DNA of 64,000 nt. Source: Verrucomicrobiales bacterium (GTDB lineage: Bacteria > Verrucomicrobiota > Verrucomicrobiia > Verrucomicrobiales > DEV007). The stretch covers positions 62,001-126,000 of the forward strand of contig JARGNI010000007.1 of assembly GCA_029213195.1 (NCBI GenBank). Direction: 5' to 3'. The number at the start of each line of letters is the position of its first letter. Position 1 is the stretch's first letter. Shown piece after piece: positions 48,203 to 54,206 of the stretch. The notes under the pieces were generated by a model. It had not been told where the DNA came from. It saw nothing but the letters and a program-made list of their open reading frames with translations, and made no database searches. The translations under genes and the position numbers were made by a program.

Positions 48203-48460
48203 CTATGCTTTTCGAGACGAGGAGACCGCCTTCTCGTTTTCTTCTCCCTCATCATCGGTTCTCAGCAGGCTTTCCTCGTTACGAAGGTCTTCCTTGAGGG
48301 CGTCGAGATCCTTTGCAGTCCGGGCCACTTCGGCTTCGGCATCCTGGGTCTGAAGGTGACCTCGACGCCAGATCAAATAGCCACAGAAAAGCCCACAGAG
48401 CAGGAAAAAGAGCGCACAAACCACGTAGTAGGGCCAACCCATCTCACCGGTAGGAATCAT
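48203..48460 (-). CDS. Small single-pass membrane protein of the envelope operon
   Basis: An 85-residue protein with one hydrophobic helix (about 10-31) ending IWRR, then an acidic, coiled-coil-prone tail with Glu/Asp and a basic end. Its membrane segment (GLFCGYLIWRR) resembles that of the other small protein in this operon (GLFAGWIIWRN) and the N-terminus of the giant coiled coil (GLLTAKFIWGR). ATG at 48460 is preferred over the upstream one because the start MIP matches the paralogue. It is the last gene of the operon, 58 bases after the coiled-coil gene. Function unknown. Confidence 0.65.
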   Translation of the reverse strand: MIPTGEMGWPYYVVCALFFLLCGLFCGYLIWRRGHLQTQDAEAEVARTAKDLDALKEDLRNEESLLRTDDEGEENEKAVSSSRKA

Positions 48461-48518
48461 CGCTATCGAATTCGAGGGGCCTGAGAAAGCGGGTGCGCGC
48501 ATCAGTCGAAGGAAACTC

Positions 48519-51500
48519 TCAATTGACGGCTTCCGCGACGGCCTTCGACTCGAGGATCAACTCGACCCGACGAGCGCGAGCATCGGTGAATCGTCGATCC
48601 TGCCCCGCTCCCCTCACCGTCAGCATGGTCTGAGCCACGCCTCGCGCAAGAAGACGCTCGCGAACGGCATCCGCACGTTGGGCGCTCAATCTCTCGGAAT
48701 AGTCCGGGCTCCCTTCAGCTCCGGCGAACCCGATGATGGAGACAGCCAGCCGGTTTGCACCTTTTCGAATCTTTCGTGCCATTTCGTCGATGGCTTGCTT
48801 CGCCTCTCCGCTGAGTTCGGCACTCTGTTCTCCAAAGAGGATCTCGGGAGAGCTGGACTTCTGGTTTTCAGGTACTGGTTCCGACTCCTGCGGCTCTTCG
48901 ACGGACGCAACAGGTGCCGCTTTTGGTTCTGGCTCTTTTCTCTCGATGCCACCCTCACTCTCAGTTGGTACTGGAGCTTGGAGATTCAATACTTTTTTGG
49001 GCTTCGGCACCTCATGATTGGCTACCAGCGCCTGCTCCTCATCAGATTCGATCTGGTCGAGAGGTTTCCCTGGTCCTTTCGCCATTTCTTCCGAGAGAGT
49101 GAGTTGGAGCGTCTTCTCGAAACTCTTCAATGAAGGACTCTCTGCTACGGCCATATTGGAAACGGCTTTGGTCGCTTTTCTGGCATCCTCAAGCTCCGAC
49201 TCCACCGCCCGCAGCTTGTTCTTGAGCATCGCGATCTCATCGTCGCGATTGGCACGCTGCATCATGATGCTACTGACCTCATTCTGGAGATCGCGAATAG
49301 ACTGACCTCGCTTGGAAACCTTGAGACGGAGCCGCTCGATCTCTGCAACCCCCTTTTCACGCTGCTGGGAAAGCGATTTCGTAATGGCTTCCTTTTCAGC
49401 CCACGTTTTCTTCAGACGCTCCAGCTCCTTGCTGTGCTGACTGACCAGACCTCCCTGCTTCTCCTGCAGTGTCTTTGCATCCAGGCTGGCAGTCGCGAGC
49501 CTCTCTTCGTATTCCGCCTTGGCCGAGGCAGCGACTTGCTCGGCCTCACGCAGCTTCTCCTGATGTTGAGAATGTTCCTCTGCCAGCGCATCGACCTGGG
49601 ATTTCCAATCGCCTAGCTCCTGATCCTTCTCCTCGATCTGACGCGAGAGATCCATGACCCGTTCATCGCTTGAACTCAGGGAAGCTTCCAGCTTTGTGAT
49701 GGACTCTCTCGCATCGTCACGATGCACCTGAGCCTCTTCGACTTCGGTTTGAAGTTGCTCGATCCGCTGCTCGAGCTCCACGACCCTGCGAGAGAGCATT
49801 TCGCCTCGATCGGTTCCTGCCTCGATCTGGCGATTCAGTTCCGAGTTCTCGGATTGAAGTCGACCCGAATGCTTCTCTGCGGCTTCCAACTCTTCGCGAA
49901 GCGTATCCAATTGCTTGTTGAGTTGCTCGGATTGGCTGAGCGCCTCTTTCCAATCGGCCTCGAATTGAATAATTCGTTGTTCCCGCTCGCTGGTTGCACT
50001 TTCCAGCTCTTCCACCCGGCGGTTGGCACGTTCCAACTCCCGAAGCGTGTCATCCTTCTCCCGTGAAACAGTCCGCAGTTGTTCTTCCAACTGACCGATG
50101 GTGGCCTCGGATTCGTTGAGCTGCTCCATCAGCGACTCCAGCTTCAGGTTCGCTTCGTCCAAGGCCTGCTCCGTAGTCGCGATCTTGAGATCTGATGCTT
50201 CGAATTCTTCTTTCCTCCGCTCCAACTCCGATTCCACCTGGTCGGCACGAGCCGCATGGTAGCGAGCCGATTTGGCTTCTTCGTCATAACGAGACCTGAC
50301 CTGGTTGAGTTCCTGGTAGCGCTCCGTCAGGGCAAGCTCCAGGTCGGCTATGCGGCGCGACTGATCGTTCAGGAAAATCTCCTTGGCAGACAACTTCTTC
50401 GTAAAGGTATCAGACTCGAAGGAGAGCGCTTCGAGTTCGCCTTCCTTCTCGGCGAGAGACTCTTTCAACAACCGCAGTTGATCCCGCTTCTGGCGCAGCT
50501 CGGAGGAGAGATCCGTGACTTCGGCCCCGCGATCCTCGATGATCGCCTCCAATTCCTCCATTTGAGCTCTGCGCTGCTCCAACTCGGCAGATTTCTCGTT
50601 GAAAGCCATCCGGAGATCACTCAGCTCGTGACGGGTGTCATGGAGCTCAGACTCCAAGCGAACTTTCTCTTCCTCAACAAGATCAAGTTCGTCGACCCGC
50701 GCCTCGAGAAGCCCGATCTCGTCGAGCCGCTCATGCAGGGCTCGTCGCACGTCATACATCTCATGGTAGGCATCATTGAGCTCTGACTGGAGGAGAACGC
50801 GTCGACGATCCATCTCATGGGCCTTCTCAAGCTCTCCCTCAAGAGCGACCATTGCGCTCTCTTTCTCGGCAACCGTCTCCGTAAGTTGCTCTACCTCCGA
50901 CTCCGTCTGCACGAGTGCCTCTCGAACTTCCGAGAGCTGGCTCTCGCGATCCTCAAGCAGCTCGCGCAGGGAAACGACCTCCTCCTCGAACTTCGCCAAC
51001 TTCAGTGCCTCTTCAAGATTAGCGCTGAGGCTGCAATTTTCCTGTTTCACTTCCGCAACCTGGGAGCGGAACGCACTGATTTCTCGACTCCTCAGGCTGG
51101 CGAGAGACATGAGCTGCGCGGCCCTCTTGGCTTTGCTTTCTTCTTCCCGCAATTTGGCTTCAAGGCTGGCGATCTGCTTCTCCTTCTCCTGCGCCTGAGA
51201 CGTCTCCTGATCGATGAGTCGGGCTTCCAACGTCTCAACCAGTTCCACCTGCTTGCGGTATCCGGTCCGGACATCGTGCAACTCATCATGCGTGTCGATG
51301 AGATCCTGTTCCAAATCCTTCACCCGCAAAGAAAGCTCTTCGTCGGGCGCAGCCGAAGCAACCTCCCCGTTCGCGAGTCCTTCCATCGTGCCGCCAAGCC
51401 CCAGCGGCATCACATCGGGGACCAAAGGAATCTCCTTGCGAAGCTCGAGTTCGGCCTGCAACTCTTTCAATTCAGCCTCACGGGTCTCCAACTCCGCACG

Positions 51501-51887
51501 AAGCGCGGCCACTTCCTGTCGAAGCCCCTCATCGACCTCCAGCTCGATGGGAACCGATTTGCCGTCACTTTGAAGCTGATTCGTAAGCTGTGTGATCCGG
51601 GCGTCGCGCTCGAGAATGGATTCCTCCGTTTCTGCGAGTCTCATCTCCCAGGCATCTCGGTCATCCTGCCACCTGGATCGGAGTTTCTTGAAGAGGTCCC
51701 TTTGCGACGCGCCCAAGGCGCTCCACTGGCTGGCCAGATTCAGGTTTTCGTCGACAGCAAAGCTGAGCCGTTGAGAATACCTTCCCCAGATGAACTTGGC
51801 CGTCAGGAGCCCCACCAGAAAGAAAATGATGGAGGCAATCCCAACTGGCAACCAGTGTTCGAGCAGAAAGAATGAAAATTCGTGCAT
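48519..51887 (-). CDS. Giant membrane-anchored coiled-coil protein with OmpA-like C-terminus
   Basis: A 1122-residue protein. An N-terminal membrane helix (about 10-32) is followed by roughly 830 residues of heptad-rich coiled coil, an acidic Pro/Glu linker (about 880-1010), and a C-terminal OmpA-like domain (1015-1122). That domain keeps LSAQRADAV with Arg1071 but has GFAGAEG (Gly1056) where peptidoglycan-binding OmpA domains have an Asp. A coil this long could reach across the periplasm. Positively charged residues follow the helix (IWGRYSQR), which by the positive-inside rule would put the coil in the cytosol; the topology needs testing. It is the third gene of a four-gene operon. Confidence 0.8.
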   Translation of the reverse strand: MHEFSFFLLEHWLPVGIASIIFFLVGLLTAKFIWGRYSQRLSFAVDENLNLASQWSALGASQRDLFKKLRSRWQDDRDAWEMRLAETEESILERDARITQLTNQLQSDGKSVPIELEVDEGLRQEVAALRAELETREAELKELQAELELRKEIPLVPDVMPLGLGGTMEGLANGEVASAAPDEELSLRVKDLEQDLIDTHDELHDVRTGYRKQVELVETLEARLIDQETSQAQEKEKQIASLEAKLREEESKAKRAAQLMSLASLRSREISAFRSQVAEVKQENCSLSANLEEALKLAKFEEEVVSLRELLEDRESQLSEVREALVQTESEVEQLTETVAEKESAMVALEGELEKAHEMDRRRVLLQSELNDAYHEMYDVRRALHERLDEIGLLEARVDELDLVEEEKVRLESELHDTRHELSDLRMAFNEKSAELEQRRAQMEELEAIIEDRGAEVTDLSSELRQKRDQLRLLKESLAEKEGELEALSFESDTFTKKLSAKEIFLNDQSRRIADLELALTERYQELNQVRSRYDEEAKSARYHAARADQVESELERRKEEFEASDLKIATTEQALDEANLKLESLMEQLNESEATIGQLEEQLRTVSREKDDTLRELERANRRVEELESATSEREQRIIQFEADWKEALSQSEQLNKQLDTLREELEAAEKHSGRLQSENSELNRQIEAGTDRGEMLSRRVVELEQRIEQLQTEVEEAQVHRDDARESITKLEASLSSSDERVMDLSRQIEEKDQELGDWKSQVDALAEEHSQHQEKLREAEQVAASAKAEYEERLATASLDAKTLQEKQGGLVSQHSKELERLKKTWAEKEAITKSLSQQREKGVAEIERLRLKVSKRGQSIRDLQNEVSSIMMQRANRDDEIAMLKNKLRAVESELEDARKATKAVSNMAVAESPSLKSFEKTLQLTLSEEMAKGPGKPLDQIESDEEQALVANHEVPKPKKVLNLQAPVPTESEGGIERKEPEPKAAPVASVEEPQESEPVPENQKSSSPEILFGEQSAELSGEAKQAIDEMARKIRKGANRLAVSIIGFAGAEGSPDYSERLSAQRADAVRERLLARGVAQTMLTVRGAGQDRRFTDARARRVELILESKAVAEAVN

Positions 51888-51913
51888 GAGTTTGGGTTTC
51901 GCAGGTCAAAAAA

Positions 51914-52150
51914 TTAACGTCGCGGATGCAGTTCCGCTTTGATCTTCGATACTTCGTCGCTGGTGTTTTCGTATTCGGCAAATGCCTCGCGGTTTCCCGA
52001 CTCCACCTTCTCCGCAAGTCTACGGGTGTTTCTCCAGATTATCCAGCCAGCAAACAGTCCGAAAACCACGCAGATGGCTCCCCAGGTGCCTAGATTGAGG
52101 CCCCACTCGTAGAGAAATGCTTCTTCAGCGGTCTGTGGCTCTGGAATCAT
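51914..52150 (-). CDS. Small single-pass membrane protein, paralogue of 48203-48460
   Basis: A 78-residue protein: short acidic N-terminus, one membrane helix (about 17-40) ending IIWRN, then a charged, partly coiled-coil tail. It starts MIPEPQT; the paralogue starts MIPTGEM. Translationally coupled to the upstream BON-OmpA gene by a 4-base ATGA overlap at 52147-52150, and 26 bases before the coiled-coil gene. Probably an assembly or stoichiometric partner of the coiled-coil protein, by inference. Confidence 0.7.
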   Translation of the reverse strand: MIPEPQTAEEAFLYEWGLNLGTWGAICVVFGLFAGWIIWRNTRRLAEKVESGNREAFAEYENTSDEVSKIKAELHPRR

Positions 52151-53997
52151 GGCGCTTCCTCCTCAGTGATGGGAACCAGGCTGATTTCAACGCGGCGCGA
52201 TTTCCATCGGTCGCTCCGCGATACCGATGTGACATCTTCACCTTTGCTTTCCTCGGTGATCCGCTCTTTCGAGACCCCCGCCGAATCCAGCGCCTCGACC
52301 ACGGATTTCGCGCGTCGGAGACTCAACTGCCGATTGTATTCCGCGTTTCCGATATTGTCGGCGAAACCGGTCACTTTCAGCTCCACCGGAAATCCAGCCT
52401 CCTCCAGTAGCGTCACCACCTCCTTGAGTTTCTCACGCTCTTCGGTGGAGATGAGATCGCTGTTCTTGGCAAAATAGATGGGATACTTCTTCAACTCTTC
52501 CGAGAGCTTGTCGCGGTCTTCCGGCAGCAGTTCCGGCTCGGGAAATGCCTCATCCTCGTGGGAGAGCTGGTTCTCGATGGAGAACCCCGACGGCACGGAG
52601 TTCACCGCCACATTCTGCAGAATCTGCTTGTCGGCGATTTCTCGAGTCATCCCCTCCATTGCGAGCCCCTCTTCGGAAAACCGGAATACCCCGGACTCCG
52701 TCCGCAGTGCAGCCTCCTCGAGGAATTCGCCCAATTGAGGAAGCCAACCGGCCGAGGCCGTGCTGGGAGCCTCCGTCAGTTCATTCTGGATCGCATAGCC
52801 CTCCTTCCTGGATTCCAAATTCTCCTCCAAGCGCTTCAAAAAGGAAATATCCGGAAGGAATCCTGTGAGGATCATGAGATTCGGCTGAAACGTTATCAAC
52901 AGTTCGGGTGCCCTGGCAGCTTCCGGAGCAGGTTTCACCTGATCCTCCAAGACTGTTACATCGGCAAGAATCTCGGGTGCCGAAGTCTCCGTCTTGAGCT
53001 TCTTCAGTGCAGAAAGGAGCTCCTGATACGATTCCTCGGTTTCCGCAGTCCCGGTAAGCCTGATTTGTTCAGGTTGAAACTCAGCCGTCATCTCCCCCTG
53101 GAATACGGTAAGCAAAACGGCGATCAAGCTCTCCGCGTCACCTTCCCAGGTCGCGGGAACAAGGGTCTGGTCTATCTCAATCCGATCGGTCACTCGGACG
53201 TTGGTCCCGGAATCCTCCAGGATCCGAACTAGGTTCTCCTTGGAATCGAGAGACGGAACCCGTCCCGAAACAACAATCCCAAAACGATTCCGTGTCAGGG
53301 AAAACTCCGAGGGAGAGGGCGGTAATTCCGGCTCGAGCAGTTCCAGGGAAACCTCCAACTTCTCCGGCTCCACCCTGGCTGCCAGATCGAGGATCGAGTC
53401 GCGACGTCCCGTATTGGAAACCTGCCCGGAAACCTGCAGCCCCGCTTCGCCGAACTGGATTCGAGCCTCGTCGGACTCGCGCAGAACCTCGGCAGCGAGA
53501 GTGGCCAGTTCGGCCGATTTCTCCAATGGCAACTGCCTGGGATCGAGAGCAATCTGATCGGAAACCTTCTCCACGCCATCCAAAGCCCTCAATCGTCTCA
53601 CGAGAAGGTCTCGGTTCGCCTCACCATCGCTTCCCATAACTCCTTCGACGAGCACTTCCTGCGAGGCAGGCGCTCTAGATACTCGAAGTGAGGGAGGAAG
53701 CGTTGGCCGAATCGGAAGTGATTCCGCCTCCCCTTCTGAAATTCGAGCTAGAGGCACCGCTTCCTGGAGTACCGCCAGGATCTTCGCTCTCGCCTCCTCA
53801 CTGTCAACATAACCAGTCAGGCTGACATCGTGATGATTGAACCGAGCCACAACCCCATTTAGGCCGGCCTCCTCGAAGGAGGTCTTTGCCATCTCCTCGA
53901 ACTCCGCTTCAATGGCTCCCTGGTAGAGGGTCTTCGCCAGGAACGAAAAACCAGCTACGGAGACAAGAAAAAGAAAGGCAGCGAAAAGAAACCTCAT
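52147..53997 (-). CDS. BON-like repeat protein with C-terminal OmpA domain
   Basis: A 616-residue exported or inner-membrane-anchored protein (hydrophobic N-terminus about 3-22). Residues about 40-490 contain at least six BON-like segments, each a strand pair with a central Gly: FNHHDVSLTGYVDS, FGEAGLQVSGQVSN, LTRNRFGIVVSGRV, FQPEQIRLTGTAE, FQPNLMILTGFLPD, FSEEGLAMEGMTRE. The C-terminal OmpA domain (507-616) is canonical: TGFADNIGNAEYNRQLSLRRA with Asp547 and Arg562 for binding diaminopimelate in peptidoglycan. First gene of the operon; its stop overlaps the start of the small membrane gene. Role likely structural in the envelope. Confidence 0.82.
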   Translation of the reverse strand: MRFLFAAFLFLVSVAGFSFLAKTLYQGAIEAEFEEMAKTSFEEAGLNGVVARFNHHDVSLTGYVDSEEARAKILAVLQEAVPLARISEGEAESLPIRPTLPPSLRVSRAPASQEVLVEGVMGSDGEANRDLLVRRLRALDGVEKVSDQIALDPRQLPLEKSAELATLAAEVLRESDEARIQFGEAGLQVSGQVSNTGRRDSILDLAARVEPEKLEVSLELLEPELPPSPSEFSLTRNRFGIVVSGRVPSLDSKENLVRILEDSGTNVRVTDRIEIDQTLVPATWEGDAESLIAVLLTVFQGEMTAEFQPEQIRLTGTAETEESYQELLSALKKLKTETSAPEILADVTVLEDQVKPAPEAARAPELLITFQPNLMILTGFLPDISFLKRLEENLESRKEGYAIQNELTEAPSTASAGWLPQLGEFLEEAALRTESGVFRFSEEGLAMEGMTREIADKQILQNVAVNSVPSGFSIENQLSHEDEAFPEPELLPEDRDKLSEELKKYPIYFAKNSDLISTEEREKLKEVVTLLEEAGFPVELKVTGFADNIGNAEYNRQLSLRRAKSVVEALDSAGVSKERITEESKGEDVTSVSRSDRWKSRRVEISLVPITEEEAP

Positions 53998-54169: not shown

Positions 54170-54206
54170 AAAAAAACCCGACCGGCTGAACCGATCGGGT
54201 TTTTTA
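54170..54206. terminator. Bidirectional terminator downstream of pnp
   Basis: CCCGACCGG and CCGATCGGG form a stem with one C-A mismatch around CTGAA, flanked by A7 on the left and T6 on the right, so it can end transcription of pnp on the minus strand and of anything on the plus strand. Confidence 0.85.

Follow-up and report, generated by a model that had tools for sequence, protein, structure and literature searches.

What kind of apparatus is encoded by a gene cluster that combines a BON-repeat protein ending in an OmpA domain, a giant coiled coil with an OmpA-like end and two very small membrane proteins, and on which side of the inner membrane does the coil reside? The question is raised by positions 48203-53997 of a 64,000-nucleotide (nt) stretch of contig JARGNI010000007.1 from a Verrucomicrobiales bacterium (the whole stretch is referred to as the window). 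We propose, with about even confidence, that the products constitute a modular tether across the envelope, in a version specific to the genus and composed of a periplasmic wall anchor, a shared transmembrane (TM) core and an exchangeable, probably cytoplasmic arm. On the minus strand, the open reading frame (ORF) list contains the BON-chain/OmpA gene (53997-52147; 616 amino acids (aa)), the gene of small membrane protein 1 (small 1; 52150-51914; 78 aa), the coiled-coil gene (51887-48519; 1122 aa) and the gene of small membrane protein 2 (small 2; 48460-48203; 85 aa). The end of the BON/OmpA gene overlaps the start of small 1 in an ATGA at 52150-52147, and gaps of 26 and 58 nt separate small 1 from the coiled-coil gene and the latter from small 2. 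A Pfam scan covering nine window proteins placed an OmpA domain at the end of protein 1 and of protein 3 (E 8.7e-15 and 2.2e-14) and BON in protein 1 (E 2.6e-7); neither small protein matched a family above cut-off in this or in an NCBIfam scan. ORF coordinates and domain scans thereby bear out the initial annotation, which had described four head-to-tail genes with an ATGA overlap and short gaps. It had also known no named system of this make-up, and no named match was found for the conserved four-gene envelope unit; a literature search for such a system, judged from its listings, likewise turned up nothing fitting.

The window genome falls into a genus-level group (g1), and 33 genomes of this group were searched. 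In all, 38 stretches were retrieved. Among the 27 main-type loci (the window, L037-L061 and L073), 21 carry BON/OmpA, small 1, coiled coil and small 2 in fixed order on one strand, including L044, in which the BON gene reaches the contig end, and L061, in which small 2 does. Contig ends interrupt four loci (L042, L050, L052 and L059), L055 misses small 2 and possesses a diverged small 1 overlooked by the automated call, and L073 is devoid of an adjacent BON gene. In the alignments made, identity to the window proteins amounted to 35-55 % for small 1, 34-57 % for small 2, 29-50 % for the coiled coil and 30-44 % for BON/OmpA. The cluster is not a chance arrangement, since its proteins recur in relatives with their gene order unchanged. 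Its layout and conservation are established, and neighbourhood and order are kept in relatives as the initial annotation had required. A point against a strict unit is genome G002, which has small 1 and the coiled coil and no BON gene between these and pnp. In G028 the remainder of the cluster lies on a separate contig (L128), and altered versions were found in four divergent genomes (G015, G017, G023 and G029). No cluster was detected in G003 (53 % complete), which displayed a single partial BON match, or in G010. Two genes appeared damaged: the available part of the G022 BON gene (L044:9001-10815), which runs into the contig end, is interrupted by an in-frame stop at codon 18, reflecting a broken gene or a sequence error, and the G017 coiled-coil gene (L062:7902-9437) is short (511 aa) and followed by an ORF that resumes the coil, probably due to a frameshift or assembly error.

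The BON/OmpA protein was modeled with AlphaFold from 21 sequences (mean predicted local distance difference test score (pLDDT) 86.7; predicted TM-score (pTM) 0.40). The model consists of an N-terminal helix (residues 2-43), seven BON-like beta-alpha-beta modules (residues ~44-480; 52558..53868, minus strand), counted from the model secondary structure, and a canonical OmpA domain (residues 508-597; 52207..52476, minus strand); owing to the low pTM, the spatial arrangement of the modules is not fixed. Rv0899 (2l26) was the best PDB match both by fold (E 1.1e-8) and by profile (E 4.7e-15), and the OmpATb BON domain 2kgs aligned to residues 99-230 (Z 13.6, root-mean-square deviation 5.5, 126 residues aligned); this second PDB comparison was dominated by the OmpA domain and barely probed single BON modules. 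The OmpA domain exceeded the PF00691 gathering score (55.3 vs 27.2 bits). Its motif Asp, Asn and Arg residues were kept in all 24 core orthologues, and the Asp in 11 of 12 paralogues. Asp547 and Arg562 are spaced by 15 residues exactly like Asp271 and Arg286 of Acinetobacter OmpA, which according to an excerpt of PMC5974059 bind diaminopimelic acid (DAP); the equation of the two pairs is based on spacing and motif, with no direct structural alignment. By its fold and intact ligand residues, the protein looks like a linker between inner membrane and peptidoglycan, and its role as periplasmic wall anchor is well supported.

Single TM segments are located at residues 20-38 of small 1 and 13-31 of small 2. 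Profile comparison revealed that the two small proteins are homologous (hhalign probability 97.4, E 1.6e-11), and small 1 also aligned to the N-terminus of the coiled-coil protein (probability 80.9, E 1.2e-5). A common pattern, G-xxx-G/A followed after two or three residues by Trp and Gly/Lys/Arg, was present in 24/25 small-1, 20/20 small-2 and 24/26 coiled-coil sequences. At L055 (genome G020), where small 2 is lost, the Trp at the TM exit has disappeared from small 1 and the coiled coil alike. This joint loss, a single co-variation, would fit a direct contact.

The orientation of these segments was assessed by counting K+R and D+E in the 15-residue TM flanks (means given as K+R/D+E), with two proteins of the same genus as controls: AtpF, which is N-out/C-in, and MreC, which is N-in/C-out. 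The N- and C-flanks of AtpF had values of 0.93/1.46 and 3.50/2.54, K+R being higher after the TM in 28/28 sequences. For MreC, values were 1.00/0.21 and 1.48/0.79, with K+R after the TM higher in 13/29 sequences, equal in 14 and lower in 2; its N-terminus is mostly M-S-R immediately ahead of the TM (12 rows displayed). All three single-span proteins of the cluster resembled AtpF in their K/R-poor N-flank and K/R-rich C-flank: small 1 (0.32/2.16 and 3.64/2.52), the coiled coil (0.80/1.20 and 2.64/1.12) and small 2 (0.35/1.30 and 2.60/2.80) had more K+R after the TM in 25/25, 25/25 and 20/20 sequences, respectively. When acidic residues were subtracted, the net charge favoured C-in in 24/25 small-1 sequences. 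The BON/OmpA protein starts with M-R immediately ahead of its TM, as MreC does. From the flanks, the C-terminus of the coiled-coil protein probably resides on the cytoplasmic side, and of the two topologies, the one with a cytoplasmic arm has the stronger support.

Several observations weigh against this assignment. Net charge favours C-in in just 16/25 coiled-coil and 11/20 small-2 sequences. Moreover, K+R is higher after the TM in 21/25 BON/OmpA sequences and in 9/11 paralogues, which means that K+R counts by themselves give no clean signal and do not decide the orientation of BON/OmpA. The usual location of OmpA-like and VWA domains is extracytoplasmic, and ComEA-type helix-hairpin-helix (HhH) domains, a fold that recurs in sister clusters (see below), lie outside the membrane.

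The coiled-coil protein is composed of an N-terminal TM (residues ~15-33), a highly conserved juxtamembrane block, a long coil, an OmpA-like head (residues 1017-1105; 48573..48839, minus strand) and a conserved tail. Mean identity over the first 100 residues is 62-64 % in nine sequences; both this region and patches of the coil, among them LEQDLIDTHDEL and QMEELEAIIEDR, are conserved better than most of the remaining protein. Of 23 complete orthologues, 20 match the tail AVAE[TSA]VN-stop (48522..48542, minus strand) exactly, and all 23 possess its final Asn. The conservation of N-terminus, patches and tail suggests that these are likely binding sites. The coil did not reach the gathering score of Crescentin (PF19220; 17.9 vs 100 bits) or the SMC cut-off (TIGR02168; 90 vs 567 bits), the best SMC stretch being residues 629-922 within the coil. 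The head is OmpA-like: it exceeded the PF00691 gathering score (54 vs 27.2 bits), was predicted as an OmpA fold (pLDDT 73-95 per ten residues across the domain, 75.5 overall) and matched Pal 4g4w with E 1.1e-9. However, Gly1056 replaces the DAP-binding Asp, as Gly does in 22/23 core orthologues, while Arg1071 is kept. At other loci the position is occupied by Gly (L128), Glu (L118), Gln (L120) or Cys (L117). Loss of the Asp is compatible with a head pocket that no longer serves DAP; the L061 orthologue, which retains the Asp, and the Arg retained in 23/23 speak against such a change.

These features bear on an all-periplasmic apparatus, in which the four proteins would set envelope width, the coiled coil being N-in/C-out with its OmpA-like end on peptidoglycan. 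The invariant ligand Arg would suit such an arrangement, as would the usual periplasmic residence of OmpA-like domains and the top fold matches of the head, which are the periplasmic domains of Pal, OprF, OmpA and MotB. A related single chain also exists in another genus of the family (L071:4989-9101, genome G033): its 1370 aa combine an N-terminal TM, a BON match, a long coil and an OmpA end, which shows that long coils also occur in chains presumed to be periplasmic. Against it stand the AtpF-like flanks of all three single-span proteins, the missing ligand Asp in 22 of 23 heads and the HhH domains encoded in the third-gene position of sister clusters, and we consider the all-periplasmic apparatus unlikely. 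The link between inner membrane and peptidoglycan suggested in the initial annotation stood for BON/OmpA, with its fold and ligand residues, and became doubtful for the coiled coil, given its N-out/C-in appearance and the lost Asp.

Sister clusters, i.e. paralogous loci and loci of other family genera, combine BON/OmpA and a small TM protein with other third genes. The TM exit of the third protein was positive in 13 of 14 loci with one tie, and in 5/5 of a second set. Matches to the NCBIfam models of NuoE, L21 and S2 were obtained for the HhH regions of L067 (E 2.1e-50), L069 (1.4e-17), L214 (2e-23), L216 (5e-55), L221 (1.2e-57) and L074 (9.4e-50); they are partial, all below the whole-model cut-offs, and cover portions of these models that we take to be HhH. 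Pfam HHH-type matches were found in the third genes of L067, L214, L216, L221 and L074, and the third gene of L070 (L070:3633-5423) encodes a TM, HhH and weak VWA matches. As NuoE, L21 and S2 are cytoplasmic, the HhH third genes favour a cytoplasmic arm. Third-gene C-termini are OmpA-like in L118 and L120, and family scans assigned no domain to the third-gene ends of L064, L065 (794-aa protein) and L218. The third gene of L074 (L074:541-5658; 1705 aa, TM and HhH) has an end resembling that of L070. Genome G029 contains two adjoining tandem units of BON/OmpA, small TM and TM third gene (L065:4696-12458), whose third-gene ends differ (the 794-aa protein versus one of 351 aa that matches HhH weakly).

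The HhH proteins point to a further possibility, a tether between wall and nucleoid, whose inner arm would bind DNA via HhH in the sister systems and would have been swapped for a protein-binding head in the genus form. Two third genes that adjoin a BON/OmpA gene and a small TM gene, L216:3319-6414 (1031 aa) and L221:2770-6825 (1351 aa), encode a TM followed by tandem HhH-type repeats, and such genes occur in paralogues as well as in other genera. Nevertheless, the hairpins are mostly degenerate, with G-x-G in 1/10 pattern-fitting repeats of L216 and likewise of L221; DNA binding therefore has no motif support and is uncertain. Furthermore, the Pfam and NCBIfam scans yielded no HhH match in the coiled-coil protein of the window. 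A nucleoid tether in this form appears improbable.

Taken together, a tethering or scaffolding function is what we infer for the cluster, and the modular tether proposed above might operate as follows. BON/OmpA would be held in the inner membrane through its N-terminal helix, with the BON-like chain spanning the periplasm and the canonical OmpA domain gripping peptidoglycan. Small 1, small 2 and the giant protein, at its N-terminus, share a related TM unit of small-xxx-small, Trp and Gly/Lys/Arg, as profile comparison shows. These three units are probably inserted N-out/C-in and packed with the BON/OmpA anchor into one membrane core. N-out/C-in insertion would place the coil in the cytoplasm, together with the OmpA-like head, which is short of a full peptidoglycan ligand site, and the conserved tail, both probably protein-binding. 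Through this unit, a rod or scaffold in the cytoplasm would be fastened to the cell wall. Sister clusters with HhH, in one case with weak VWA, in the third-gene slot suggest that the inner arm is exchangeable. More tentatively, the BON-OmpA strut, the N-out TM core and the exchangeable arm (a coil with a re-used OmpA fold, or HhH arrays) could form a wall-to-interior linkage that reaches a cytoplasmic or nucleoid partner, a possible but doubtful extension.

How far the system extends was examined by profile searches. Among 387 phylum genomes, the window genome itself was the sole strong match of small 1; 18 further genomes at E 4e-4 to 0.0094 were regarded as chance, individual matches not being inspected. 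The N-terminal profile of the coiled coil matched 30/33 genus genomes, 1/41 other family genomes weakly (E 6e-4) and, among 286 class genomes, the own genome plus two weak ones (E 1.6e-4 and 2.5e-4). BON/OmpA was more widespread, with matches at E 1e-10 in 65/74 family genomes, many through the OmpA end alone. In the 286 class genomes, at most four candidates per genome being scored, 36 matches at E <1e-15 were obtained besides the window's own, of which 35 start no earlier than profile position 477, within the OmpA end, and the remaining one, in G514, starts at 417. Fourteen stretches from other family genera were compared: BON/OmpA, a small TM protein like small 1 and a third protein stand in a row in five (L214, L216, L217, L218 and L221), a transporter-like gene follows BON/OmpA in six (L209-L213 and L220), and three (L215, L219 and L222) have BON/OmpA without such partners. 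The five rows show that a core of three genes extends beyond the genus. The OmpA-ended giant coil together with small 2 was seen solely in this genus among the genomes searched.

The cluster is preceded by pnp and rpsO, pnp being transcribed in the same direction. In 19 of 26 relatives pnp lies within ~1.1 kb upstream of the first gene; of the seven others, the sequence available upstream is no longer than 2 kb in five, while it extends over 5 kb without pnp in two (L047 and L060). Between pnp and the BON/OmpA gene of the window, a hairpin of nine pairs followed by seven T was read by eye on the minus strand (54170-54199), though the hairpin scan did not list it; this hairpin suggests that the cluster has a separate transcript. 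Downstream, a TIM-barrel gene is oriented toward the cluster. For small 2, an alternative in-frame ATG upstream at 48502 would give 99 aa; several orthologues begin near the 85-aa start. The co-occurrence with shape genes raised in the initial annotation was pursued for mreC, the sole shape gene examined, and no tie was seen in 32 genus genomes: mreC was undetected in three (G010, G013 and G020), of which G013 has the cluster and G020 the cluster minus small 2.

At the minimum, the locus represents a conserved genus-specific operon of a make-up not found in the literature searched. If the proposed tether is correct, several genera of one bacterial family would possess related systems that are anchored to the wall and differ in an inner arm open to replacement, the head would be a case of an OmpA fold relocated to the cytoplasmic side, and mechanical coupling of the cell wall with cytoplasm or nucleoid would gain a testable handle.

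Among known proteins, ArfA/OmpATb (Rv0899) of Mycobacterium tuberculosis is nearest to BON/OmpA by fold and PDB profile, and likewise unites BON and a C-terminal OmpA domain in one chain. ArfA carries an N-terminal TM, and the arfABC operon has two further small membrane proteins. The cluster might thus be an ArfABC-like stress or pH-adaptation operon, in which BON-OmpA and small membrane proteins take part in small-molecule secretion. The match to ArfA_OmpATb_N (NF051434; 75.4 bits, E 4.3e-21, in three stretches) is in line with this, although it falls short of the 81 bits set as the curated cut-off. The seven BON-like modules set our protein apart from ArfA, neither small protein has a family match above cut-off, and we know of no counterpart of the 1122-aa coil with its OmpA-like head in arfABC. 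Across the phylum, 30/288 genomes (own included) matched the ArfA family, none above cut-off; the matched ORFs in eight retrieved stretches are mostly ~250-320 aa and BON-type judging from their ends alone. They were rejected as relatives of the four-gene system because the small-1 and coiled-coil profiles had no match at E 0.01 in these stretches. Even with the link of OmpATb to ammonia secretion mentioned in an excerpt of a review (PMC3816664), an ArfABC-like role seems a poor prospect for this cluster.

Both OmpA domains share the fold of Pal, MotB and OmpA-C; the BON protein has the ligand Asp and Arg, whereas the coiled-coil protein is without the Asp. EzrA, ZipA and AtpF are anchored N-out/C-in, and the coiled-coil protein resembles them in the single N-terminal TM, the short K/R-poor N-terminus, the positive exit and the helical arm. 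In contrast to them, the coiled coil adjoins the gene of a predicted peptidoglycan-binding protein and bears an OmpA-like head, and the Pfam scan of the window proteins at E 0.1 revealed neither EzrA nor ZipA families. FtsZl1/VWA/OmpA operons, predicted in the excerpted text of PMC2875224 to act in membrane remodelling, similarly mix OmpA-domain, VWA and coiled-coil proteins at membranes; they differ in that the nine window proteins showed no FtsZ-like, GTPase or kinase match in the Pfam scan. For the wall-to-interior linkage considered above, the eukaryotic LINC bridge would provide the functional comparison.

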